A stretch of DNA of 64,000 nt from Ignavibacteria bacterium (GTDB taxonomy: Bacteria; Bacteroidota; Ignavibacteria; Tepidaquicellales; OLB5), in NCBI GenBank assembly GCA_017303675.1, contig JAFLBX010000001.1, forward strand, positions 569,970 to 633,969, written 5' to 3'. The notes beneath the pieces were generated by a model. The model was not told where the DNA came from. It made no database searches and was given only the letters and a program-made list of their open reading frames with translations. A program made the position numbers and the translations under genes. Positions 15,338 through 58,769 of this stretch are shown here, in pieces (positions within the stretch are counted from its first letter, which is position 1; each line of letters starts with the position of its first letter).

Positions 15338-15364
15338 ACCGGGATTTAATTATAGTTCCATTAC

Positions 15365-15470
15365 ACTAACCAATTTAAAACCGTTTAACCGATTAAACCA
15401 TAAACCGATTAACCGTTTAACCGATTAACTGTTTAACCAGATAACCGTTTAACAATTTAACTGATCAACC
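15365..15470. repeat. degenerate TTTAACCG/GATTAACC tandem repeat
   Basis: About ten imperfect units of roughly 10 bp (variants of CCGTTTAACC and GATTAACC) fill the space before the radical SAM gene. A shorter block with the same units is at 48090-48129. The pattern is telomere-like in look, but it is short and degenerate and has no gene of its own. Confidence 0.7.
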
Positions 15471-15472
15471 AA

Positions 15473-16924
15473 TTGTCCGATATCCTGTTTGCAAATACGT
15501 ATTTTTTAAAGCATGACCTGAAGGAATTCCGCAACATGAATCTTTATGCGCCTTTGGGTACTCTGTATGCCGCAGCATACGTTATGCAGAAAGGCTATAC
15601 TGCCGCCTTGTTTGATACTATGCTCGCAGATTCTGAAGAGGACCTGAAGGCATCACTTGCACAGCATAAACCCAGATATATGGTGATATATGACGATACT
15701 TTTAACTATCTCACCAAAATGTGTTTAACCAGGATGCGTGAAGCGGCTTTCCGTATGAGCGAAATCGCAAAGGAATTCGGCTGCACTGTGATAGTATCAG
15801 GCTCCGATAGCGTTGACCACCTTGAAAAATATTTCCGGCATAAAGTTGATTATGCCATCTGCGGCGAGGGAGAACAAACCCTCGGTGAACTTTTGGACTA
15901 TTTACAAAATATTTTTGCGAGCGAAGCAAAGCAATCCCATAAACAGAACCTCCCGCATAACATCAACGGACTCGCTTTCCTCGAAAACGGCAAAATAACA
16001 CGCACCGCTCCAAGAAAAGTATTAAAAGAACTTGATACACTGCCTTACCCCGCATGGGAGCTGGTTGATCTTGCAAAGTACCGTGAGTTGTGGCTGAAAC
16101 ATCACGGGTATTTTTCCATGAACCTGGTAACAACCCGCGGATGTCCCTTCCACTGCAACTGGTGCGCAAAGCCCGTTTACGGGCAGGTGTATAATTCACA
16201 CTCACCCCAATATATTGCGGGTCAGGTTAAGCTGCTTAAAGAAAAATATTCCGCTGATCATATCTGGTTCTGTGATGATATCTTCGGGCTTAAGCCCGGC
16301 TGGGTCAAAGGTTTTGATGAAGCTGTAAATAAAGATAGCATTAAGCTTCCCTTCAAATGTCTTTCACGGGCTGATCTTTTACTGAAGGAAGATAATATTT
16401 CGCATCTGGCAAATGCGGGGTGTGAGTCGATTTGGATAGGCGCGGAATCAGGTTCACAAAAGATACTCGATGCCATGGATAAGGGTACAACAATTGAAGA
16501 AATCTACGAAGCAACCCGCCTGCTGAAAAAACACGGCATCAAAACATGTTTCTTCCTGCAGTTTGGCTACACCGGTGAAACAATGAATGAGATCAACCAG
16601 ACCATTAAAATGGTTAATGACCTTATGCCGGATGATATTGGTATTTCGGTTTCATATCCCCTGCCCGGAACGAAATTTTATGAGCGCGTATCATCGCAGA
16701 TGAAGAAAAAGCATAATTGGGAGCTCTCGGATGATTTCGAAATGATGTTCGACGGGACTTACTCAACTGAATTTTATCGCGTACTGCACAAACGCGTTCA
16801 TAAGGAATACCGCACCCGCCAGCTTCTTCACGAACCCTTAAAACGCTTCACATCACTCTGGAAACTGCCCGTGTATGCCGCGGGGTGGATGGCAAGCTCG
16901 AGAAAACTGAGATCTCTAAATTAA
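15473..16924 (+). CDS. B12-binding-type radical SAM protein 1
   Basis: 483 residues from a TTG start. Residues 1-150 form a Rossmann-like cobalamin-binding-type domain (LGTLYAAAYVMQKGYTAALFDT, YAICGEGEQTLGELLDYL); the base-off DxHxxG motif is not visible, so B12 binding is uncertain. Residues about 215-440 are the radical SAM barrel, with C224xxxC228xxC231 in TRGCPFHCNWC and ESGSQKILDAMDKGT further on. Related enzymes modify lipids, tetrapyrroles or secondary metabolites. Two paralogues lie at 25.8 and 33.4 kb. Residues about 147-156 (IFASEAKQSH) come from a GCGAGCGAAGCAAAGCAATC palindromic repeat inserted in frame. Confidence 0.88.
   Translation: MSDILFANTYFLKHDLKEFRNMNLYAPLGTLYAAAYVMQKGYTAALFDTMLADSEEDLKASLAQHKPRYMVIYDDTFNYLTKMCLTRMREAAFRMSEIAKEFGCTVIVSGSDSVDHLEKYFRHKVDYAICGEGEQTLGELLDYLQNIFASEAKQSHKQNLPHNINGLAFLENGKITRTAPRKVLKELDTLPYPAWELVDLAKYRELWLKHHGYFSMNLVTTRGCPFHCNWCAKPVYGQVYNSHSPQYIAGQVKLLKEKYSADHIWFCDDIFGLKPGWVKGFDEAVNKDSIKLPFKCLSRADLLLKEDNISHLANAGCESIWIGAESGSQKILDAMDKGTTIEEIYEATRLLKKHGIKTCFFLQFGYTGETMNEINQTIKMVNDLMPDDIGISVSYPLPGTKFYERVSSQMKKKHNWELSDDFEMMFDGTYSTEFYRVLHKRVHKEYRTRQLLHEPLKRFTSLWKLPVYAAGWMASSRKLRSLN
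15914..15939. repeat. palindromic repeat inside a coding region
   Basis: TTGCGAGCGAAGCAAAGCAA, a type of dispersed repeat found in many genomes, is translated in frame as an ASEAKQS-like peptide between the B12-type and radical SAM domains. Confidence 0.55.
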
Positions 16925-16952
16925 AATTTTGTGGATTGAAGTTTATTAATAG

Positions 16953-17005
16953 CTCCCCTCCTTTCTTAAGGAGGGGAAAGACTGCCCAAGGCAGTCAGGG
17001 GTGGT
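16953..17005. repeat. two-hairpin element, copy 2
   Basis: CTCCCCTCCTT / AAGGAGGGG, then GACTGCC / GGCAGTC, then AGGGGTGGT. Lies just after the radical SAM gene. Confidence 0.7.
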
Positions 17006-17053
17006 AACTTTGCCACAATATATCACAAGCCCAGAAGCGGTGCAATATATCAA

Positions 17054-17187
17054 CGATGGGCGAAGCCCATCGAAATATGCACACATGTATCGCTAGCCCT
17101 GAAAGGGCGGTATAACCTAGCGATGGGCGAAGCCCATCGAAAAAATACACACATAAAACCCAAGCCCTGAAAGGGCGTCATAAAAAA
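17054..17187. repeat. REP-like palindromes, 2 x 67 bp
   Basis: Two tandem 67-bp units, each with CGATGGGC-GAA-GCCCATCG (17054 and 17121) followed by GCCCT-GAA-AGGGC (17096 and 17164). They sit directly downstream of the IS200-like transposase gene. The same palindromes in inverted orientation lie on its other side. Confidence 0.8.
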
Positions 17188-27218: not shown

Positions 27219-27230
27219 CCCGCTTTTGAA

Positions 27231-27399
27231 CGGCCTATGGAAAACTGCGTAAAAAAATTTGAGCACGCATTAATTAATGCAAAAAATCTGTTTGAGACGA
27301 AGTCGAGTTATTTTTTGCATCTATTGCGTGCGAAAAGTTTTAGCAGTTTTCCATCAGCCTTGACTTTTTTGGTTCTTTTTGTGTCAAGACAAAAAGAAC
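27231..27399 (+). repeat. long-hairpin element A (type II tail)
   Basis: 5' end CGGCC; inner stem TGCAAAAAAT / ATTTTTTGCA; tip GAC-GAA-GTC; tail hairpin GTTCTTTTTGT / ACAAAAAGAAC after AGCCTTGA. See finding on this family. Confidence 0.85.
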
Positions 27400-27482
27400 A
27401 AATAAATTGAAAGAGTGTCAGGCAAGCCTGTCACCTACCAGAAACAGAATTACAGTATTTACGGGTTTAAAAAAATTAAACA

Positions 27483-28346: not shown

Positions 28347-28568
28347 CCCGCCTTTGAAAATTGCCGGCTGACTGCGGTAGCAGTCAGGAAAATTATTTGA
28401 GCAGATACAACACGGGAAAAGCTGTTTGAGACCGCCGGAGGCGGGTGAGTTCTTTTCCCGAAAGGCGAAAATAATTTCAGGCAATTTTCAGCAGCGGGCG
28501 ATTTTTCTTTGGTTACTTTCTGGCGCTTGTCCCGCACTCGATGCGGGAATCGCTCAAAAGAAAGTAAC
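28347..28568 (+). repeat. long-hairpin element B (type I tail)
   Basis: 5' end CCCGCC; outer stem GAAAATTGCC / GGCAATTTTC; inner stem CGGGAAAA / TTTTCCCG; tip ACCGCC / GGCGGGT; then GCGGGCG and a GTTACTTTC...GAAAGTAAC hairpin. Confidence 0.9.
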
Positions 28569-28577
28569 GTAAAAATA

Positions 28578-30413: not shown

Positions 30414-30435
30414 GTAACTTTAATATAAAGAAAAA

Positions 30436-30633
30436 CGGCCTACGAAAAACGGCGTGTAAAAACTTGAGAACGCATAGATAAAAAGCAAAAAACTGTTTGA
30501 GTCCGGCAAATCGCACCTATGTTGCGTATCAAGCCGGACGAGTTTTTTTTGCGTCTATTGCGTTCGAAAAGTTTTAGCCGTTTTTCGTCAGCCTTGACTT
30601 TTTTGGTTCTTTTTGTGTCAAGACAAAAAGAAC
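30436..30633 (+). repeat. long-hairpin element C (type II tail)
   Basis: 5' CGGCC; outer stem GAAAAACGGC / GCCGTTTTTC; inner stem GCAAAAAACT / AGTTTTTTTTGC; tip GTCCGGC / GCCGGAC; tail GTTCTTTTTGT / ACAAAAAGAAC. Confidence 0.88.
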
Positions 30634-30698
30634 AAAACAACATTTAATGTAAAGACTGAAAATAAACAATTAATCGAAAAGGGTCAGAAAAAACCACT

Positions 30699-31829: not shown

Positions 31830-31891
31830 CAAAATCCTTTCGGAGGGAAACGGGCAAGAAACAGATTTGAATGTAATTTTTAATACTTAAT

Positions 31892-32096
31892 CCCGCATTT
31901 TGAAAATTACCGTTAAAAAATTATTTGAGCAGAATGAACGCGGGAAAAGCTGTTTGAGTCACGCAAATCGCACCTATGGTGCGCACCAAAGCGTGACGAG
32001 TTCTTTTCCCGTAAAGCGAAAATAATTTTAGGTAATTTTCAACAGCGGGCGATTTTTCTTTGGTTACTTTCTTTTGATCGCTCAAAAGAAAGTAAC
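31892..32096 (+). repeat. long-hairpin element D (type I tail)
   Basis: 5' CCCGC; outer stem GAAAATTACC / GGTAATTTTC; inner stem CGGGAAAA / TTTTCCCG; tip GTCACGC / GCGTGAC; shortest tail: a perfect 15-bp stem GTTACTTTCTTTTGA / TCAAAAGAAAGTAAC. Confidence 0.92.
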
Positions 32097-33363
32097 GTAT
32101 ATAAACAAAATATTTAACGAAGAACTGAAACAACTCACAAACAAAATATTCAAAGATACTTTCATAGTAATGATATCAAACATCATCAACTATGGCGGCA
32201 TGTTCGTGCTTGCGGTATTGATAACACGAATGCTTGGTGTAGATGCCCTGGGTGAATTTACATATATCTTTGCGGTAAGCTCAATACTGGCAGTAATATC
32301 AGAACTGGGACTATCTCAGCTTCTGGTAAGAAAGATCAACGCAGAACGTACATTAGTATTTTCACTTGTTCGGAATGTGAATATTTTTAAAATTTTCATT
32401 TCAATTGGCTGTGTTTTATTAACCTCAATGATTTTTTATATCTTCCCCGGTTTCAATCTTAGCATTACACTTATTATCGGAATCGCAGTAATTATCCCAA
32501 AAACCATACAGGCAACATATGATTCATCAATTCGCGCGTTACAGAAACAGGCGATTCCGTCAATTATCAAGAGCATAAATACCTTCCTCCAAATTATCTT
32601 TGCTTATTTTATTTTGGTTTACACAGGAAGTTTGCTGAATATTTTTATTATGATAATTATCATGGAAACTCTCACAATGATAAAGTTTTATATCATAAAC
32701 AAAATTTTATGGAACAGGTCTGGAATTATATTCGCAGATTCAATTCCTTACAGCTACAACTACATTAAGCCTGTGCTTGCAGAATCATTCCCGTTTTTCG
32801 GAAGCAGTTTTCTTGCGCTGTCTATTCCCCGCATAATTGTGATAATTTTGGGATACATGACAAATGCAGTATCACTCGGAATTTTTTCTGCCGCTTCGCG
32901 TTTTGCCAATGGTGTTGGCTTATTTTCGGGTGCCGTGTATAATACATTTTACCCGGCTATGACAAACCCTGATACTTCCGTTGGTGAAAAGTATGCACTC
33001 GCCAGAAAACTTACGTTGTACGCTTTCATTTCCGGTTTAATGATCTCACTGACTATTTATTTTCTTGCAGAAATATTAATTGACCTTACATTCAGAATAC
33101 CGGAAGCCGTGCCTGTGCTTAAACTTTTAGGATTCTCAGTAATTCCTATTTTAACTTATTCAGTTATTCAGCCATATTTAATTTCCACTCATAATGAAAA
33201 ATATATTTTCAGAACTTATTTTTTAGTCTGGTTAATAAATATCATTCTGGGACTATTTATTATCCATCATCTTGGCTATATAGGCGCAGTATTTGGTAAT
33301 ATTATAATTGAGTATTTCATTCTTTTAATTTTATTCTATAAATTTATTAAGATCAGGTTTTGA
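32074..33363 (+). CDS. polysaccharide flippase (Wzx/MVF superfamily)
   Basis: Up to 429 residues. About 12-14 membrane spans; the N-terminus FKDTFIVMISNIINYGGMFV, VLITRMLGVDALGEFTYIF and the later SRFANGVGLFSGAVYNTFYPAM are typical of O-antigen/teichoic-acid-type flippases. The start is uncertain: TTG 32074 lies in the repeat hairpin, ATG 32170 falls inside the first span, and the most natural N-terminus (NKIFNEELKQLTNK) begins at an ATA at 32101. The protein would turn lipid-linked glycan over the inner membrane, in keeping with the surrounding glycosyltransferases. Confidence 0.85.
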   Translation: MIAQKKVTYINKIFNEELKQLTNKIFKDTFIVMISNIINYGGMFVLAVLITRMLGVDALGEFTYIFAVSSILAVISELGLSQLLVRKINAERTLVFSLVRNVNIFKIFISIGCVLLTSMIFYIFPGFNLSITLIIGIAVIIPKTIQATYDSSIRALQKQAIPSIIKSINTFLQIIFAYFILVYTGSLLNIFIMIIIMETLTMIKFYIINKILWNRSGIIFADSIPYSYNYIKPVLAESFPFFGSSFLALSIPRIIVIILGYMTNAVSLGIFSAASRFANGVGLFSGAVYNTFYPAMTNPDTSVGEKYALARKLTLYAFISGLMISLTIYFLAEILIDLTFRIPEAVPVLKLLGFSVIPILTYSVIQPYLISTHNEKYIFRTYFLVWLINIILGLFIIHHLGYIGAVFGNIIIEYFILLILFYKFIKIRF

Positions 33364-34913: not shown

Positions 34914-34972
34914 GTATAGAATTGCTTATTAAAAACCGTTTCTAAGGTTTAGGTGTTTCTTTTGATTTTATT

Positions 34973-35142
34973 CGGCCTCTGAAAATTTCCGCCAGGAAAT
35001 TATTTGAGCAGAAACAACACGGGAAAAGCTGTTTGAATCCCGCAAAGCGGGCGAGTTCTTTTCCCGTGAAGCGAAAATAATTTCAGGAAATTTTCAGCAG
35101 CCTTGATTTTTTTGGTACTTTTTGTATCAAGACAAAAAGTAC
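34973..35142 (+). repeat. long-hairpin element E (type II tail)
   Basis: 5' CGGCC; outer stem GAAAATTTCC / GGAAATTTTC; inner stem CGGGAAAA / TTTTCCCG; tip CCCGC-AAA-GCGGG; tail GTACTTTTTGT / ACAAAAAGTAC. Confidence 0.9.
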
Positions 35143-35200
35143 ATAATAATAACTTTAATGATTAAACAAGTTAAGATTATAAAAATCAATATCAATTAAT

Positions 35201-36561: not shown

Positions 36562-36791
36562 CCCGCCTTTGAAAAATTGACGTTAAGAAATTATTCGAGC
36601 AAGCGTAGCAAGAAAAACTGTTTGAGTCACGCAAATCGCACCTATGGTGCGCACCGAAGCGTGACGAGTTTTTTTCTTGCAGCGAAGCGAGAATAATTTT
36701 AGGCAATTTTTCAGCAGCGGGCGATTTTTCTTTGGTTACTTTCTGGCGCTTGTCCCGCACTCGATGCGGGAATCGCTGAAAAGAAAGTAAC
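36562..36791 (+). repeat. long-hairpin element F (type I tail)
   Basis: 5' CCCGCC; outer stem AAAAATTG / CAATTTTT; inner stem GCAAGAAAAA / TTTTTCTTGC; tip GTCACGC / GCGTGAC; GCGGGCG, then a tail with inserted CCCGC/GCGGG hairpin. Confidence 0.9.
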
Positions 36792-36831
36792 AACATCAGC
36801 CAAAATAGGAAATTTGCGTTATAAGATATTA

Positions 36832-38203: not shown

Positions 38204-38728
38204 ATTTAAATATTCGATTACATTCATGCCATTGAAAATTTCCGTTAAGAAATTATTCGAGCAAGCGGTTGAAAATGTCTTTTGATTATAATCGGCCTAT
38301 GAAAATTTCCGTCAAAAAATCTGATTTGCAGTATAAGCACAGGAAAATCTGTTTGAGTCCGGCAAATCGCACCGTTTGGTGCGTATCAAGCCGGACGAGT
38401 TATTTTCCTGTAAGGCAAAGCAGATTTTAGGAAATTTTTAGCAGCCTTGATTTTTTTGGTACTTTTTGTATCAAGACAAAAAGTACATATTAAAATTTAA
38501 ACAATCAGTATGCAATCCATACGAAGTGAAGGATTGATCAAAATTCACAGAAGGAAATATTCATCCTATGACTTCAAGGCATCGGATAAATAACTTAAGC
38601 CATACGTTTTCCATTTAAACTATTGTTTTCTTTAATTACTTTGTAAATCAATTATTTACAAGGCTATCAAAGGGATCTTAAGAAAAATAAACTATCTTTA
38701 TAAGTACCATTTTATTGTAAAACCTAAA
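38204..38728. other. gap with one full and one partial long-hairpin element
   Basis: A 5'-arm fragment of the long-hairpin family at about 38226-38266 precedes complete element G. The 240 bp after it show no repeat or gene I recognise. Confidence 0.6.
38293..38486 (+). repeat. long-hairpin element G (type II tail)
   Basis: 5' CGGCC; outer stem GAAAATTTCC / GGAAATTTTT; inner stem CAGGAAAAT / ATTTTCCTG; tip GTCCGGC / GCCGGAC with inner GCACC / GGTGC; tail GTACTTTTTGT / ACAAAAAGTAC. Confidence 0.9.
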
Positions 38729-39379: not shown

Positions 39380-40636
39380 ATGGGGTTCAGAGCAATTTTC
39401 ACCACATTATTTTTATCTTTACAGGCACTTGTTTATTTTACGTTTATAAGATACTGGAAAACCACCAAATATTATAAACCTTCTCACCGCTGGTGGGCGC
39501 TTGCGCCGTTTGTAATATTTAACCTGTCATTCATTATTGTTTCCTTTATTTGGGGCAGAAATTTCGCTCCCCCGGAATGGTTTAAAATTCTCGGACTTTA
39601 CCCGTTCTATATCTGGATGGCAGCAACATTCTTTATTTCTGTTTGGCTGCTGGTCGGCAAGGTTATAAAGCTTCCGTTTCAGATACCTATCTGGATTGCA
39701 AAGATATTCAAGCCGCTTCGCAGGAAGATAAATTCCGTTAAAGAAAAGAAGGTTGTTAAAACAGTTGACCTTTCCAGGAGAAAATTTGTGCGCTATGCAA
39801 CTATGGGCATTTCTACATATGCGTTTGCAGGCGCAACATACGGAATGTTAAGGCATGACTCCTACGAAATTGTACACAAAAATATCACAATAGATAACCT
39901 GCCCGCTGAGCTGCGCGGCACAACGATCACTCTGTTAAGCGATATTCACGCGGGACAGTATATGAATGAAAAAGAAATGCGTGAGTATGCTGATGTTATC
40001 AATTCGCTAGAAAGTGATATCGTTTGTATACCGGGTGATTTTGTTAATTTTGATGTAAGAGATGTTCACATGCTTACAAATGCTTTCAGGGATGTTAAAG
40101 CCAAACACGGAATTTACGGCTCGCTTGGCAACCATGATTTCTTCCAGGATGCTGATTATGTTGCAAAGGCGATCAATAATGAATCACCCATCCAGGTATT
40201 AAGGAATGAACACCGGGTTATCAGCATTAAAGGCAAGCCGCTTTATATGCTTGGTATAGATGATACACAGGGGTCAGGCGCAAAAATGCAGGAAGTATTA
40301 AAATACTACGGAGCAATGGATGAATATCTGAAGAACAATGATCCTGATTTCAACAGCTCCCCTAAAGTACTTTTATGCCATAAGCCATATGGCTTTGATA
40401 CGCTGGCCACCAAGGAAATAGATCTCATACTTTCAGGCCATACACACGGCGGTCAGGTTGTTCCCCTGAAATTCGGGAATTTTAATATGTCTTTTGCCGC
40501 AACTGTAAGCAAATACATCGAAGGTATCTATAAGATCGGGAAATCAAACATGTATGTAAGCCGCGGCATCGGCTCAGTCGGCCTTCCTATCAGAATCAAC
40601 TGTCCCCCTGAAATAACAAAAATTACACTGGTGTAA
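39380..40636 (+). CDS. membrane-anchored metallophosphoesterase
   Basis: 418 residues. Four hydrophobic spans in residues 1-105 (FLSLQALVYFTFIRYW, FVIFNLSFIIVSFIW, FYIWMAATFFISVWLLVG). The calcineurin-like domain, 165-418, has all motifs: LLSDIHAGQ (DxH), CIPGDFVNF (GD), SLGNHDFF (GNHD), LLCHKP and LSGHTHGGQ (GHxH). This is the YkuE/YaeI-like arrangement, for which phosphodiesterase activity on lipid or nucleotide substrates is known. A Tat-like RRKFVRYATMG segment at about 135-145 precedes the domain, with a likely further span behind it. Confidence 0.9.
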   Translation: MGFRAIFTTLFLSLQALVYFTFIRYWKTTKYYKPSHRWWALAPFVIFNLSFIIVSFIWGRNFAPPEWFKILGLYPFYIWMAATFFISVWLLVGKVIKLPFQIPIWIAKIFKPLRRKINSVKEKKVVKTVDLSRRKFVRYATMGISTYAFAGATYGMLRHDSYEIVHKNITIDNLPAELRGTTITLLSDIHAGQYMNEKEMREYADVINSLESDIVCIPGDFVNFDVRDVHMLTNAFRDVKAKHGIYGSLGNHDFFQDADYVAKAINNESPIQVLRNEHRVISIKGKPLYMLGIDDTQGSGAKMQEVLKYYGAMDEYLKNNDPDFNSSPKVLLCHKPYGFDTLATKEIDLILSGHTHGGQVVPLKFGNFNMSFAATVSKYIEGIYKIGKSNMYVSRGIGSVGLPIRINCPPEITKITLV

Positions 40637-40760: not shown

Positions 40761-42419
40761 ATGAAATACATTTTACTTCTGCTGGCACTGCTTAACTCTA
40801 CGCTTATAGCACAGAACTCCGCCGTAATTACATACAATTTCTATTCAAACGGCTCTCCCGCAGGTACACCGCCATTAACACTGGAAGCATCAGCAAATCT
40901 TTCCAGATACACCAATGCATCCGGCGAAACATTCTATCTGGATTACACTTCCTCAAAAACATATCAAACCACAACACTTAAAAACGGCCAGATTATCACA
41001 GATGAAGAATCATTTGGCACTTATAATGTACCTGAACTGCAGAGTGATACTATGACGATCCTCGGCTACCTCTGCAAAAAAGCGCATACGGTTATACGTT
41101 CAAATCATATTGATATATGGTATACAACCCAAACGGAATTTAAAGGTACACCCTCAATTAGTATCGGACCCCAGCTTGGACTTGTTCTTAAAATAGTGCG
41201 GAACGGTAATTTTGAAATTACCGCGGAAAAAATAGAGCTCAGCTCTCAAATGATCACACTACCCTATTCAATAGGTGAAATAGTAGAGTTGCCGTATTAC
41301 AGGTTCAGGGTAACAGCGCAGAATTACACCACTATTAATATTTTCCAAAATGAAAAAATTAATTTTGGTGATAAACCCGTAAATCTTTTAACTAATGAAC
41401 CGGGTATTACTTACCGTTTTGCCGAAGGCACTGTAATTCTGAAAAAAGTCAAGCTTCCTGAAAATATGGGCAAGCATTCCGTTATAGCTGAGCTTACCGA
41501 AAAATCTACGGGTGATGCTTATGACAGAACAGGCTCGCTTTTTATAATACCTGATATCACAAAGGATACTTCACTAACATTCATGGATGCCTTCATTAAC
41601 GGAATTTCAGCTCTGCCAAAATATGACGCAAAGAATAAAAAAGATTACCGCGGGTTTACTTTGACCGATAAGTACACACCGCCGATTGAACTGATGCGTT
41701 TTATTACTCCGTTCGGGATCGGTCATTACAACAGCCAGGTGCAGGTTTATAATACAGTGTGGCTGGATTCCGTTACATACAAACAGGATGTAACAAATCT
41801 GCTGCCTGCCCTCGAGGGTGAAGTATGGTTCGGTATATTTATCGGCTGTTATGATAAAGGCGGCCATAGCGTTAGCCTGGATCTGAAATATTACCCTGAT
41901 GATATTCCGCAGGAACCGGCGGAGGTAAGCAATGAATGGATTCAGCCGCTGATATTTACAACCAATATAATGGAAGTCGCTTCGCAGGAGTATGCAACAA
42001 TTTTTGAAAATGATACATTACAGGTTACAGTTGATATTCCCGATGGAATTAAATCGGTGACATTGCGTTATATCAGTACAGGACACGGCGGCTGGGGTGG
42101 CGGTGATGAGTTCAATAAAAAAATGAATTTTATTTTCGCTGATGGGAAGCTGATATACAGCTACATTCCGTGGCGTGATGACTGCGGTATGTACAGAAAC
42201 TATAATCCCGCCTCAGGCAACTTCCCGAACGGAATGTCATCAAGTGATTTCAGCCGCTCGGGGTGGTGCCCTGGCTCAACCAGCGTGCCTGTTGATATTC
42301 CGCTAAATAATTTGAAACCCGGCAGGCATACATTTTCGGTATATATCCCAATGGGCAAACCCGAAGGCACCAGCTTTTCTGCATGGAATGTATCAGCCGT
42401 ACTTATCGGCAAGTATTGA
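40761..42419 (+). CDS. secreted PNGase F fused to GLPGLI-like domain
   Basis: 552 residues. Signal peptide 1-17, ending in LIAQ. Residues about 18-165 follow the GLPGLI family (MTILGYLCKKA, IDIWYTTQ, GPQLGLVLKI, FEITAEKIEL). From about 240 to the end it matches peptide-N-glycosidase F: a FMDAFINGISALPKYD segment, GHYNSQVQVY, HSVSLDLKYYPDD, and in the second jelly-roll STGHGGWGGGDEF, YIPWRDDCGMYRNYNP and SGWCPGSTSVPVDIPLNNL. The enzyme removes N-glycans from glycoproteins, turning Asn into Asp. Exported or surface-bound. Confidence 0.88.
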   Translation: MKYILLLLALLNSTLIAQNSAVITYNFYSNGSPAGTPPLTLEASANLSRYTNASGETFYLDYTSSKTYQTTTLKNGQIITDEESFGTYNVPELQSDTMTILGYLCKKAHTVIRSNHIDIWYTTQTEFKGTPSISIGPQLGLVLKIVRNGNFEITAEKIELSSQMITLPYSIGEIVELPYYRFRVTAQNYTTINIFQNEKINFGDKPVNLLTNEPGITYRFAEGTVILKKVKLPENMGKHSVIAELTEKSTGDAYDRTGSLFIIPDITKDTSLTFMDAFINGISALPKYDAKNKKDYRGFTLTDKYTPPIELMRFITPFGIGHYNSQVQVYNTVWLDSVTYKQDVTNLLPALEGEVWFGIFIGCYDKGGHSVSLDLKYYPDDIPQEPAEVSNEWIQPLIFTTNIMEVASQEYATIFENDTLQVTVDIPDGIKSVTLRYISTGHGGWGGGDEFNKKMNFIFADGKLIYSYIPWRDDCGMYRNYNPASGNFPNGMSSSDFSRSGWCPGSTSVPVDIPLNNLKPGRHTFSVYIPMGKPEGTSFSAWNVSAVLIGKY

Positions 42420-42430
42420 AACATGTAAAG

Positions 42431-42484
42431 CTCCCCTCCTTTTTTAAGGAGGGGAAATCACGCTGAAGGCGTGATGGGGTGGTC
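42431..42484. repeat. two-hairpin element, copy 6
   Basis: CTCCCCTCCTT / AAGGAGGGG, then ATCACGC / GCGTGAT, then GGGGTGGTC. Confidence 0.7.
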
Positions 42485-42500
42485 AAGTTATAGTACATGA

Positions 42501-42546
42501 TTAGCCGCATAGCGGCGCGATACACCAGCAATGGGCAAAGCCCATC
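42501..42546. repeat. REP-like palindromes
   Basis: AGCCGCATAGCGGC-type palindrome and ATGGGCAAAGCCCAT; a diverged relative of the units around the transposase gene. Confidence 0.5.
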
Positions 42547-42587
42547 TTGAAAATCTTTCAGCAAATATTGATAAAACACATAATCCA

Positions 42588-42680
42588 ATTCCCCCTTATA
42601 AAGGGGGACAATATTGTTAAGATTCAAAAAAATCAGATTGAAAATTTAATGTTAATATTCGTTAATCACAGATGGGGATT
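42588..42680. mobile_element. MITE-like element, copy d
   Basis: From ATTCCCCCTTATAAAGGGGG to AGATGGGGATT, about 93 bp. The right end contains the ATG used by the next gene. Confidence 0.5.
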
Positions 42681-43397
42681 TATAAATTTACGGTGATCAG
42701 GTTACTCATAATACAAGTAATAGCAGCAATAATATCTTCAACTCTCTATTCGCAAAATCCGTATATAGAACACTCTCCCCATAGCGATACTATACCTTCG
42801 TGTAATTTATCAACATTACAGGCTGATTCCATTTTCAACTTCATCATATCAAATAAACACCTTATCGATCTGGATGACTGCAATATCTGTAAATCACGTG
42901 CCCACATTATTGCCCGCATTATAGAAAAATATTTCCCCGGTGTAACAACAGCTAAAGTATGGCTGATAGCTGATTGCAAAAGAGCTTCAAAAACTGAATA
43001 TTACAGGTATAAGCCGGAAGTACTTCTGCATTCCCCCGGCAAGTGCCGCAATTGGTCATATCATGTTGCCCCGGTTATTATTACCGCTGAAGATACAATT
43101 GTAATAGACCCCTCAACACAGGCTAAACCAGTTAACTTAAATAAATGGGCTGGTGATATAATTCCCGATAACGGTGACGGATTTTTGATAATTAAAGATA
43201 AGAGGTATTACATCTATCCGCAGAATAAAGATGACCTAATGCTTGATACTTTAAATAACTGGGATATCAAAAACAAAAATATGACCGATGATAAATATTT
43301 GCGATCTGTCGATGAAACACTCCGCGCTAAACACAGTCTGTATGAGCCATGGAAGTTCAATTATTACATTTCTGAATTAATGAAGCTGCTGGAGTAA
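42672..43397 (+). CDS. secreted protein-glutaminase-like enzyme
   Basis: 241 residues with a signal peptide (to about residue 27). CKSRAHIIARIIEKYFPG at 73-90 gives the catalytic Cys 73 ahead of xRAH, NWSYHVAPVI at 128-137 gives His 131, and TIVIDPSTQ at 142-150 gives Asp 146: the Cys-His-Asp triad of bacterial protein glutaminases (transglutaminase-like fold). Known enzymes deamidate glutamine side chains in proteins. A Cys-rich loop (CNLS, DDCNICK, DCKR, GKC) may form disulfides. It lies directly after the PNGase F gene. Its ATG lies in the end of a repeat element. Confidence 0.75.
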   Translation: MGIYKFTVIRLLIIQVIAAIISSTLYSQNPYIEHSPHSDTIPSCNLSTLQADSIFNFIISNKHLIDLDDCNICKSRAHIIARIIEKYFPGVTTAKVWLIADCKRASKTEYYRYKPEVLLHSPGKCRNWSYHVAPVIITAEDTIVIDPSTQAKPVNLNKWAGDIIPDNGDGFLIIKDKRYYIYPQNKDDLMLDTLNNWDIKNKNMTDDKYLRSVDETLRAKHSLYEPWKFNYYISELMKLLE

Positions 43398-43768
43398 AAA
43401 ATTGTTTATTACATACCCACTCCTTTATTAAAAGTGGGTATGCTTATGTTCTTTCAATACTCATTTAAAATCCCGCCTATGAAAATTGCCGTCTCGGAAA
43501 TTATTTGAGCAGATACAATACGGGAAAAGCTGTTTGAGTCCGCAAATCGCACCTATGGTGCGCATCAATGCCGGACGAGTTCTTTTCCCGTAAGGCGAAA
43601 ATGATTTCAGGCAATTTTCAGCAGCGGGCGATTTTTCTTTGGTTACTTTCTGGCGCCTGTCCCGCACTTGATGCGGGAATCGCTCAAAAGAAAGTAACGT
43701 ATAAATTGCAATATGCTGTTATATAGTTTCCCAAACTGGAGTTTGGAAACAGAAAAAGATCAATTTTT
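43398..43768. other. gap with long-hairpin element
   Basis: A CCCACTCC...AGTGGGTA hairpin at about 43418-43441 can end the preceding gene. Element H follows, and then a TTCCCAAACTGGAGTTTGGAAA palindrome at about 43728-43749, like the one at about 24170. Confidence 0.6.
43472..43698 (+). repeat. long-hairpin element H (type I tail)
   Basis: 5' CCCGCC; outer stem GAAAATTGCC / GGCAATTTTC; inner stem CGGGAAAA / TTTTCCCG; tip GTCCG / CGGAC with inner GCACC / GGTGC; GCGGGCG; tail with CCCGC/GCGGG insert. Confidence 0.9.
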
Positions 43769-44509
43769 ATGATAATCACTTCCAAAATACTGTCATCACA
43801 CAAAGAGCTCATCCACGGCATCTCAACACGATTTGCGGATGAACCGCCGTTTTACAATAACCTGAGCAAACATGTCGGAGATGAGCATAATACAGTCATG
43901 AAAAACCGCACGCGGTTTTTCGGTTCTCTGGGAATCGCAGAAGCATCACTCGTTCATGCCAACCAGGTTCACAGCGATGGCGTATCAATAGTAACAAAGC
44001 CGGGCCTCTATCCAAACACAGATGCGCTTATCACTTCACAACCGGGCTTGAATCTTGTTATATCCGTTGCGGATTGTATGCCCGTAATGATATTTGACAA
44101 ATTAAACGGTGTGATAGCAAACATTCATTCCGGCTGGCGCGGCACCCAGAAAAATATTACAGGTAAAGTAATTTCAATTATGGTTAATGATTTCGGCTCA
44201 AAGCCCGAAGAGCTTGCAGTATTTATGGGTCCCGCAATAAGTAAACCTAATTTTGAAGTGGATAAAGATGTTGCTGATCTGTTTCCCGGGGAGTATGTTT
44301 CACCAAAAATAAATTCAGATGGAAAATATATTGTTGATACAGGCTCTATGGTTTACCAAAGCCTGCTTTCAGCAGGCGTGCAGCCGGGTAATATTGAACA
44401 ATTCAATGAATGCACTTTTAATAGCGCTCACCTGCATTCATACCGAAGGGATAAGTCAACCTCAGGCAGAATGTTTGCGGTCTTAGGAATGAAGAATATA
44501 AACATTTAA
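43769..44509 (+). CDS. pgeF: PgeF, peptidoglycan editing factor (YfiH family)
   Basis: 246 residues. LVHANQVHSDGVSIV holds the first His, ISVADCMPVMIFD the conserved Cys, and NIHSGWRGTQKNI the second His plus GWRG. The C-terminal NSAHLHSYRRDKSTSGRMF matches the S-x-R-R/x-D ending of the family. Former names call it a polyphenol oxidase or laccase; the E. coli enzyme is an amidase that removes wrongly added L-Ser from peptidoglycan precursors. It converges on the histidine kinase gene, with only 6 bp between. Confidence 0.93.
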   Translation: MIITSKILSSHKELIHGISTRFADEPPFYNNLSKHVGDEHNTVMKNRTRFFGSLGIAEASLVHANQVHSDGVSIVTKPGLYPNTDALITSQPGLNLVISVADCMPVMIFDKLNGVIANIHSGWRGTQKNITGKVISIMVNDFGSKPEELAVFMGPAISKPNFEVDKDVADLFPGEYVSPKINSDGKYIVDTGSMVYQSLLSAGVQPGNIEQFNECTFNSAHLHSYRRDKSTSGRMFAVLGMKNINI

Positions 44510-48038: not shown

Positions 48039-48089
48039 GATCATATACAAATATATTTTTATTTAACTTGTTAAAGGATTATTTTTTGA

Positions 48090-48129
48090 CCGATTAACCG
48101 ATTAACCGTTTTACCGGTCAACCATTTAA
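48090..48129. repeat. degenerate GATTAACC / TTTAACC repeat
   Basis: GACCGATTAACCGATTAACC followed by GTTTTACCGGTCAACC; the same units as at 15365-15470, here just after a stop codon. Confidence 0.6.
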
Positions 48130-48133
48130 CAAA

Positions 48134-49801
48134 TTACGGTTTTGCTTCAACAAAATACATATCATTGCCTTTTGAGGCTATGAATGTAATTGTGCCGTCA
48201 TTCTTTACATTTACATCTGTGTAAGCTGAATATGTATCACCAAGCTTTTTATTATTTACATAAAGTGAGTAGTCATATATATAGAGATCTTTTTTAATCA
48301 TATTTCCGGCAAAATATACAAGCTTTCCGTTCACATATTTAAGATCGCTGATATTATCAAATGTTTTGCTCTCACCGATATTTGAATAAACATTATATTT
48401 ATAACTGTAATTTTTCTTATCAACCAGATCGCCTGCTAAAAATGAATAACCATTGCTGCCGTTGGTTAATATTATCTGGTTCGTTTTCCAGTCTGCTGTA
48501 TTGATAGTGTTATACGGACCCATTTCTTCATCATCAATTATCACATAACTTTTATCGGGAATATTCTTATCATAATTACCGTACTTTACCCCTACGTAAG
48601 CTATATTTCCGTTCGGCATGAACTTTGCTTCGCTTATGTAATCATATTTTCCCGATATCTGTTCGCCGTTAAGCACCACAAAGTATTTGTTATCCTTATC
48701 AGAAGCCGTAAAAAGAACATCGCCCTTTTTATTAAAAATCGGGTAATTAACTGATGAATATTTACTGCTCTTTTTACCGCCAATAACCAATGTTGCTGAA
48801 TATACATACTCGCCTTTCGAGTTGGTGCTTTCTTCTGAAGTAATGTAGTACAGCTTTCCTGCCTCATTAAAGCCGTAATTATAGATGCTTCCGCTCACGC
48901 TTTCAATTGCTGTTTCGCCCTGCATAAGCGTTGAGCGGTATTTATATTCGCCAACCGAATCCTGTCCAACATACATCGGGTTGCCGCTGTTATCAAATGT
49001 TATCGGGCCGTAAACCCAGTCAAAAGATTTAAATTCCCTGTTACCTACAACAACAAATGTATTGCCTCTTTCCATGTAGAACTGCCCGGATGATCTTGCA
49101 ATATAGCAGGGTTCATCATTAGCATTGAACTTCAGGTCATACCATGTAATATCGCTGTAATGCTTCTGCTCTTTATCGCCTATTACAAGGAATGTTTCAT
49201 TGTTTTCCCTGGCTATATAATAAACGCTTCCTGATTTTGTGAAGCCAACATAACCTATAGGCTCACCTTCAGAATAGCCATCAGGTGTATATGCAAGCCG
49301 TACCTCATCGTATACTTTTCCCTTGGTTATACTTCCTGTTTTGGTATCATACATTGCTAAAAATGATTTTCCGCCTTCGCTTGCTGAATAATAAATTACG
49401 TTATCTTTAATTGTCCATCCTTCGGTGACAAAATCATATTCTGCAACCACATCATTATTCTTTAATATTGAATATTTATAAACAGTATCCGTGATATTTT
49501 CGCTACCTATTATGTATGAATTTCCATCTGTATCAAACAGAGCGTTATATGTCATAGCGTAATTGAAAGGCTTAGAGGAGCCTTTCGGTGTAATTATCGT
49601 ATATTTTGTAGTTGTTGTATCATAAGATGCATATGCCCAGCCGCCTGTAGCTGCATCGTATTTCAGTGAATAAGCGTCAACAGTTCCGTTCCCCTGGGGA
49701 ATTCCTGTTATCAGCTTTTGGTTAATTGTCTGAGCGCCTGCCTGCATAACTAACATTATGCATAAAAACGCTGAAAATAATGTAATATTGACCCTTTTCA
49801 T
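48134..49801 (-). CDS. secreted beta-propeller-like protein
   Basis: 555 residues from MKRVNITLFSAFLCIM, which gives a clean signal peptide (to QAGAQ); a 12-residue longer frame is rejected. The rest consists of many repeats of about 45-60 residues of the form G.P.Y..G...Y....G (KYSSVNYPIFNKKGDVLFTA, KYDYISEAKFMPNGNIAYVG, DKEQKHYSDITWYDLKFNAN), WG-repeat or propeller blades rich in Tyr and Ser. A surface or periplasmic binding role is plausible. TATCTTTG is 34 bp upstream and an intrinsic terminator lies downstream. Confidence 0.75.
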   Translation of the reverse strand: MKRVNITLFSAFLCIMLVMQAGAQTINQKLITGIPQGNGTVDAYSLKYDAATGGWAYASYDTTTTKYTIITPKGSSKPFNYAMTYNALFDTDGNSYIIGSENITDTVYKYSILKNNDVVAEYDFVTEGWTIKDNVIYYSASEGGKSFLAMYDTKTGSITKGKVYDEVRLAYTPDGYSEGEPIGYVGFTKSGSVYYIARENNETFLVIGDKEQKHYSDITWYDLKFNANDEPCYIARSSGQFYMERGNTFVVVGNREFKSFDWVYGPITFDNSGNPMYVGQDSVGEYKYRSTLMQGETAIESVSGSIYNYGFNEAGKLYYITSEESTNSKGEYVYSATLVIGGKKSSKYSSVNYPIFNKKGDVLFTASDKDNKYFVVLNGEQISGKYDYISEAKFMPNGNIAYVGVKYGNYDKNIPDKSYVIIDDEEMGPYNTINTADWKTNQIILTNGSNGYSFLAGDLVDKKNYSYKYNVYSNIGESKTFDNISDLKYVNGKLVYFAGNMIKKDLYIYDYSLYVNNKKLGDTYSAYTDVNVKNDGTITFIASKGNDMYFVEAKP

Positions 49802-52747: not shown

Positions 52748-53163
52748 ACCTCTCCCCTTAATAAAGGTGGGTCGATAGGTAAGTTTTAACATACTATGAT
52801 CTTCGGTGGGATTGCTTGAGCTTTTGATTCTAACCGGCCTATTTCTCAAAGAGCTGTAAGCTGTAGGCGTCCAGTGGAAAGGTTTTTGATCTTTTCTTTT
52901 TCCCCGCCTTTGAAAAATTAGCGGAAAAAAATTATTTGAGCGAACGTCGCAGGAAAAACTGTCTGAAGTTCAGGCACGTAAGTGACGGAACGAGTTCTTT
53001 TCCTGCAGTGAAGTGAAAATAATTTTAGCTAATTTTTCAGCAGCGGGCGATTTTTCTTTGGTTACTTTCTTTTCATCGCTGAAAAGAAAGTAACATTAAA
53101 CTTAATTCACCGGGTGTTCTAAATACTAATCACATTAATCAAGCTAATCAGGGTAATCATGGT
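52748..53163. other. gap with long-hairpin element
   Basis: A GGCCTATTT fragment similar to the 5' end of the long-hairpin family at about 52839 is followed by complete element I. No gene. Confidence 0.6.
52903..53094 (+). repeat. long-hairpin element I (type I tail)
   Basis: 5' CCCGCC; outer stem GAAAAATTAGC / GCTAATTTTTC; inner stem GCAGGAAAAA / TTTTCCTGC; tip GTTC / GAAC; GCGGGCG; tail GTTACTTTCTTTTCA / TGAAAAGAAAGTAAC. Confidence 0.92.
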
Positions 53164-55809: not shown

Positions 55810-55977
55810 GCTTTTGCTTTTGATTTTGATTGAGCTTTTGATTCCAAACAGCCTATGAAAAACAGCTTAAAAAAAATCAAATCTTTTGACCCGCCTCAGA
55901 AAAACGATTAGCCCCCCTCTTTAGAACAAAAAATAGACACCAAGTCTCAAAGGAGTACAAAGCTTTTGCTTTTAAAA

Positions 55978-56148
55978 CGGCCTATGAAAATTTCCGCCAG
56001 GAAATTATTTGAGCAGAAACATCACAGGAAAAGTTGTTTGAGTCACGCAAAGCGGGACGAGTTCTTTTCCTGTAAAGCGAAAATAATTTCAGGAAATTTT
56101 CATCAGCCTTGATTTTTTTGGTACTTTTTGTATCAAGACAAAAAGTAC
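55978..56148 (+). repeat. long-hairpin element J (type II tail)
   Basis: 5' CGGCC; outer stem GAAAATTTCC / GGAAATTTTC; inner stem CAGGAAAA / TTTTCCTG; short tip CACGCAAAGCGGG; tail GTACTTTTTGT / ACAAAAAGTAC. Both flanking genes are on the minus strand, yet the element keeps the plus orientation. Confidence 0.9.
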
Positions 56149-56458
56149 ATAATCATAACGCCCTTTCGGCTCTGGTTTATCCTGCGAAATTGTATTAGTG
56201 GGCTTTTCACATTTCTGATATATTAAGCCTTTTCATTGCTGATTATCCGAATTATTTTTTTTCAAAACCGGCTGCCAAGTCTCAAAAGAGCACAAAGCTT
56301 TTGCTTCTAAAACGGGATATAAATACAACATAAAACTCCAGGCTTCTGAACCCCGTAGAGGTGACACGTTATTTACAATAACCCCCGGTAAGCATAGCAA
56401 AGAAAGGGGCGTAAGCTGCCCCTCCCTTAGATATGAAAGAAAACATAAGGGTTGTAAT

Positions 56459-58118: not shown

Positions 58119-58581
58119 TAAAATCAAATTCAATAACTTTCACCAAACTAACTGTAGAGACGTCCCGCCTAGCCAAGCCAAAGGCATGGTGGGTCGTCTG
58201 CTTATTATGGTTTTTGGCGGACTTAAATTTGCGAAGAGAAATAAGGAAAGTCAGGCGGAGGCACTGAACTTTTATAAATCTAAAAGTCAGGGGCACTGAG
58301 TCACGTATCAGCTTTTTGTCACCCTGAACTCCTGCCTGAACTGCCGTTACGGCAGGCAGGTGCTTCAGGGTCTGCTCTCCTGCACATACATCTTAGAGGA
58401 TGCGATCAAATGCATTTGTAGTTGTTACGGTTTAGTTTACTCCTTGGGAGCCTGACACCCCACAAAGCAAAAGCATTTCACCGCTCCGAAGGTTCAAAGT
58501 ACAACTATGGAGAGCCCCTTTGGGGCCAAGACGCCAAACTTTAAAGTCAGGTACGCTATGTTTTATTTTTTGTTTTTGATT

Positions 58582-58748
58582 GGCCTTTGAAAAAAAGCGT
58601 AAAAAAACACGAAGGCGCATTTAATAACTGCAAAAATCTGTTTGAGGCGAAGCCGAGTTATTTTTGCTTCAATTGCGACTGAAGTGTTTTAGCTTTTTTT
58701 CAGCAGCCTTGATTTTTTTGGTACTTTTTGTATCAAGACAAAAAGTAC
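58582..58748 (+). repeat. long-hairpin element K (type II tail)
   Basis: 5' GGCC; inner stem TGCAAAAAT / ATTTTTGC; tip GGC-GAA-GCC; outer stem GAAAAAAAGC / GCTTTTTTTC; tail GTACTTTTTGT / ACAAAAAGTAC. Confidence 0.88.
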
Positions 58749-58769
58749 AGATTTGTTTATCTTTGCATT

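Follow-up and report, generated by a model that had tools for sequence, protein, structure and literature searches.

The locus and its setting

The window (the whole stretch of DNA analysed, 64,000 nucleotides) comes from an uncultured Ignavibacteria bacterium whose genome measures 3.65 Mb in two contigs. It holds two intact open reading frames for a PNGase and a protein-glutaminase-like protein, which lie in tandem on the same strand with 252 bp between them, at the positions and in the orientation that an earlier note on this DNA had given. The genes and their immediate neighbours are as follows:

39380-40636, + strand: YaeI-type metallophosphoesterase (PF00149), upstream neighbour; belongs to the conserved block solely in the main clade
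40761-42419, + strand: type II PNGase F, 552 aa (PF22252, PF09112 and PF09113)
42420-42671, no strand: spacer of 252 bp with dispersed repeats and a terminator-like hairpin
42672-43397, + strand: protein-glutaminase-like protein (PF18626), putatively exported, 241 aa; triad Cys73-His131-Asp146
43769-44509, + strand: pgeF (peptidoglycan editing factor; TIGR00726, 174 bits), downstream neighbour, a housekeeping enzyme

The spacer is enlarged in this species by dispersed repeats. Two repeat elements (42429-42483 and 42493-42550), with related copies at 16951-17075, precede a terminator-like hairpin at 42590-42608, and the filling of the 252 bp by repeats may be the reason why the pair is not operon-like here. 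A promoter scan gave results no better than those obtained with shuffled sequences.

The two repeat elements are linked, occurring together at both 16951-17183 and 42429-42550, and one repeat copy matches the Rfam Acido-Lenti-1 RNA (17095-17139, minus strand). A dispersed family of about 240 bp with the palindromic core TTTCTTTGGTTACTTTCT...AAAGAAAGTAAC is present in about a dozen, mostly intergenic, copies within the 64 kb. Arrays of TTAACCGA-like units with a period of 8 bp lie far from each other at 15361-15477 and 48070-48138. Copies of the 240-bp family were located at:

13304, 27224-27410, 28359-28576, 30429-30644, 31887-32127, 34966-35153, 36562-36799
38224-38497, 43467-43706, 52903-53070, 55971-56159, 57451, 58574-58759

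Enzyme families and putative export

The first frame matches PF22252 (104.6 bits), PF09112 (178.1 bits) and PF09113 (155.8 bits) from end to end, all far above cut-off, and its closest solved structures are Elizabethkingia PNGF-II (4r4x, E 8e-131) and the PNGase B035DRAFT_03341 of Bacteroides massiliensis (7zgn, E 3e-126). It shares with these an N-terminal bowl domain together with two N-glycanase domains, the conserved DxxDR and GDEF motifs, and a Gly at the position of Glu118 of PNGase F; unlike them it is carried by Ignavibacteria and has a glutaminase-like gene next downstream. The residue concerned, Gly362, aligns with the Gly of 4r4x and 7zgn, as opposed to the Asp of the group 1 enzymes 3ks7 and 4qhb, in line with the Glu or Asp found at this position in type I and the Gly found in type II enzymes (PMC9522356). 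The alignment also places a compensating Glu, conserved in type II enzymes, at Glu405, and Asp255 and Glu450 were further located. The designation PNGase F was thus right as to family, and Gly362 and the bowl domain refine it to type II. Since type II PNGases accept core alpha1,3-fucose, as in plant and invertebrate N-glycans (PMC9522356), these two features make core alpha1,3-fucosylated glycans the likelier substrate of this enzyme. The gene is under purifying selection (dN/dS 0.06-0.14).

The second frame scores 51.4 bits with PF18626 (Gln_deamidase_2), for which the cut-off is 25, and a family profile of members from the genus and more distant ones matches the Chryseobacterium pro-protein-glutaminase 3a56 at 1.5e-41. 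Counted along the profile alignment, Cys73, His131 and Asp146 fall exactly on Cys156, His197 and Asp217 of that enzyme. All three are invariant in the 20 aligned PF18626 members, drawn from five family codes of the phylum, as are Lys95, Trp128, Tyr130 and Trp159. An AlphaFold2 model built with 14 sequences is of moderate confidence (pLDDT 64, pTM 0.62); its best Foldseek matches are protein-glutaminases (8z3i, 1.1e-4, probability 1.0), and VIA-align places 8z3i, 2zk9, 3a56 and 3a54 first (Z 11.1, 10.1, 9.9 and 9.9), followed by SseI (Z 7.0) and NTAQ1 (Z 6.7). The Cys-His-Asp layout noticed earlier therefore holds to the residue, and the fold on which the earlier note had made its proposal depend is supported by profile, Foldseek and VIA-align alike. 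This gene, too, is under purifying selection (dN/dS 0.07-0.23).

The protein has in common with the protein-glutaminase of Chryseobacterium proteolyticum (2zk9, 3a56; EC 3.5.1.44) and with Flavobacterium FBPG (8z3i) the PF18626 profile, the register of the triad, the modelled fold and a putative signal peptide, but it is only about 20% identical to the characterised enzymes. These have a pro-region of 108-118 residues (114-118 in 2zk9, 3a56 and 8z3i; PMC9396377), whereas here about 25 residues separate the putative signal peptide from the PF18626 domain. It differs further in a longer, poorly modelled loop (residues 102-128) before the catalytic His, in an extra invariant Cys70 three residues ahead of the catalytic Cys73, and in a conserved, genus-specific C-terminal part with the motif EPW. 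Against the equivalog model NF040782 it scores 14.3 bits, far under the cut-off of 250. As judged from sequence and model, it is a PF18626 member with the protein-glutaminase fold and triad, belonging to the same superfamily on a separate branch and not an equivalog of the Chryseobacterium enzyme; in view of the low identity, the absent pro-region and the equivalog score, we speak of its glutaminase activity as putative.

By eye, both N-termini carry a hydrophobic stretch ending in ...LIAQ (PNGase) or ...LYSQ (glutaminase), with an AQ or SQ site, and signal-peptide-like N-termini are likewise seen in the proteins of most relatives. Neither protein has a lipobox, and both are without the T9SS tail seen elsewhere among the proteins of the genus. 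For this reason the term secreted, used earlier, is replaced by exported: putative export of both proteins stands, and the enzymes may be released from the cell or, lacking a T9SS tail, may both stay in the periplasm.

Distribution and conservation of the pair

Of the 152 genera in the class, only the one studied here has PF18626, which is present in 12 of the 294 genomes, so that both genes were probably gained and then came to lie together. The named relatives matching the glutaminase are exclusively Ignavibacteria MAGs, Chlorobi bacterium OLB5 among them. In a sample of 395 genomes of the phylum, PF18626 was found in 11, a strong PNGase match in 20 and both in five; the genes are adjacent only in the two genomes of this genus and not adjacent in the remaining three (G244, G252 and G307). 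Genomes of the Chryseobacterium/Elizabethkingia type commonly hold both enzymes, as here: in the family around a Chryseobacterium-like genome, PF18626 is present in 107 and a PNGase-type match in 230 of 320 genomes. Unlike here, however, the two genes are unlinked: among the matches listed, 25 genomes have the two on a single contig, and in each of these the distance is 479 kb or greater (pairs matched up by hand from the match lists). In these surveys the same pairing did not recur in unrelated lineages. Co-occurrence is therefore ordinary; what sets this genus apart is the adjacency.

The earlier note had known of no described pairing of these two enzymes. This stands for the linked pair, as a literature search returned no paper linking protein glutaminase with PNGase F, the sole co-mention of an N-glycanase being in the SseI structure paper; it does not stand for co-occurrence in one genome, common among Chryseobacterium relatives. 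Phage or plasmid cargo was rejected as an origin, since tblastn with the glutaminase against the records of 50,697 phages and 72,556 plasmids gave no match, and so was a defence system, with no PADLOC match for either protein.

Among the 13 genomes of the genus, the glutaminase is present in 12 (PF18626 above cut-off), the PNGase in 11 and both in 10. The survey of neighbouring genes suggested earlier finds the pair recurring, adjacent and co-oriented with the PNGase first, in eight of the 10 genomes with both (G000, G003, G004, G008, G009, G010, G013 and G014); lack of co-occurrence, which would have spoken against the proposal, is not what is seen. In G005 the two genes are cut off by the ends of their contigs, each on the side where its partner would be expected, and in G006 both genes are present but apart. 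G007 and G011 have the glutaminase only, and G012 the PNGase only. The PNGase gene of G003 is broken, which we do not accept as gene death since this is a draft metagenome assembly. Spacers in the genus range from 28 to 455 bp, with 28 bp in G008 and 38 bp in G009.

In G004, the intact glutaminase gene is closely followed by two degraded pieces of its C-terminal part (G004:C1:377417-378028; L014, L015). G011 has a second PF18626 copy which groups with G007 and may be contamination, estimated at 6% for that genome. A large ORF of 1,823 aa is inserted between pgeF and a histidine kinase gene in G014 (L114:2720-8188) and G005 (L102:5171-10654), and is alpha-2-macroglobulin-like by Pfam in G014. 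The Chryseobacterium-like genome G687 carries nine PF18626 genes, of which seven form a cluster of about 13 kb (G687:C2:204314-217356).

The pair could owe its persistence to neutral synteny, a tentative but substantial alternative: two useful, independent exported enzymes would have been neighbours by descent since the ancestor of the genus, sharing neither substrate nor regulation. The surrounding block of phosphoesterase, pgeF and kinase is conserved too, and pgeF adjoins the glutaminase in nearly all genomes, including G007 and G011 which are without the PNGase; the large spacer with repeats and hairpin in the window and the distances in Chryseobacterium relatives point the same way. On the other hand, glutaminase and pgeF trees both separate G007, G009 and G011 from the remaining genomes, and the pair is present on both sides of this deepest split, although in G009 a squalene/phytoene synthase gene takes the upstream place of the phosphoesterase while PNGase, glutaminase and pgeF are kept. 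The short spacers of G008 and G009 (28 and 38 bp) also argue for more than inherited order, and the rarity of both genes in the class makes a chance landing side by side unlikely. The PNGase of G008, unlike its neighbours, groups inside the main clade, a borderline hint that a transfer within the genus has renewed it, with its place beside the glutaminase unchanged; because the AU result is itself borderline and was obtained post hoc (p 0.04), we do not claim this transfer. As the pair has been inherited mostly vertically within one genus, the conserved adjacency may represent few independent events.

Possible joint action on foreign protein

The best explanation, to which we give even weight for and against, is that of two exported, amide-hydrolysing enzymes which scavenge foreign protein and whose genes are linked by ancestry and probably regulated together. 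The two genes would be transcribed together and their products would act in succession. The type II PNGase would remove N-glycans from foreign protein, leaving Asp; core alpha1,3-fucosylated N-glycans from plants, invertebrates or protists are probably among its substrates. The glutaminase-like cysteine enzyme would then hydrolyse the exposed Gln side-chain amides to Glu by means of its Cys-His-Asp triad. Both deamidation steps would add negative charge, opening and solubilising the protein and easing digestion by peptidases, so that the food would be the peptide and not the glycan. Behind this proposal stand the family assignments, the aligned catalytic residues, the fold at the level of a model, the conserved adjacency, the purifying selection on both genes and the glycosidase complement described below.

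In contrast to the plant-N-glycan pathway of B. massiliensis (PMC9522356), a search for GH92 mannosidases and GH29 fucosidases, these two families being the ones searched, found none in this genome or across 15 genomes of its GTDB family. Without them a freed plant-type glycan would not be dismantled as in B. massiliensis, which favours protein as the target, in keeping with the earlier note; the organism probably does not feed on the glycan. A study of Chlorobi/Ignavibacteria from anammox granules, which are relatives of this organism but distinct from it, proposed that they break down extracellular protein (PMC5460018).

Several observations weigh against the scavenging pair. The glutaminase has retained pgeF as a neighbour no less faithfully than the PNGase, the 252-bp spacer holds repeats and a hairpin, and G006, G007, G011 and G012 are exceptions; to these are added the mostly vertical inheritance in one genus, the separation of at least 479 kb among the matches listed for Chryseobacterium-like genomes, the glutaminase's identity of about 20% and the missing T9SS tails. 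The adjacency thus suggests, without proving, joint work on protein waste.

A more specific version, which we consider rather doubtful, is that of a protein-softening module, in which the type II PNGase and then a pro-region-less branch of glutaminase, possibly redox-controlled through Cys70-x-x-Cys73, act on the same glycoproteins. Asn and Gln side chains alike would lose their amide nitrogen, and an organism without the usual plant-N-glycan glycosidases would feed on the peptide part.

It is improbable that the PF18626 protein is instead an amidase or transferase of the related papain-fold kind which acts on something else (a single particular protein, an N-terminal Gln or, given the pgeF neighbour, an amidated peptidoglycan stem peptide) and is only incidentally linked to the PNGase: its divergence from the characterised enzymes in identity, equivalog score, pro-region, loop and C-terminus, the more distant fold matches NTAQ1 and SseI and the constancy of pgeF would fit such a protein, but in profile, sequence and fold comparisons protein-glutaminases come first with a clear lead over the other matches, and the triad and its surrounding motifs are kept.

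What emerges is a conserved pairing of two enzymes of known kinds, one of them divergent, and it is not categorically new. If the scavenging pair is real, it offers a testable gene unit by which Ignavibacteria of biofilms and wastewater would open up glycosylated protein. It would also tell apart two uses of PNGase, one freeing the glycan as food, as in gut Bacteroides, and one freeing the protein, as the absence of GH92 and GH29 suggests here. Protein-glutaminase and PNGase are both commercial enzymes, and a pro-region-less glutaminase would represent a new enzyme branch with a possible use in protein processing.

Finally, most genomes of the genus encode a second, distant protein of about 440 aa with a PNGase C-domain and a T9SS sorting tail, which is possibly the extracellular counterpart of the paired PNGase:

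L036:1015-2328 (G000:C2:1183010-1183519): PNGase-C-like paralogue with T9SS tail; relatives at L027, L028 and L030-L035
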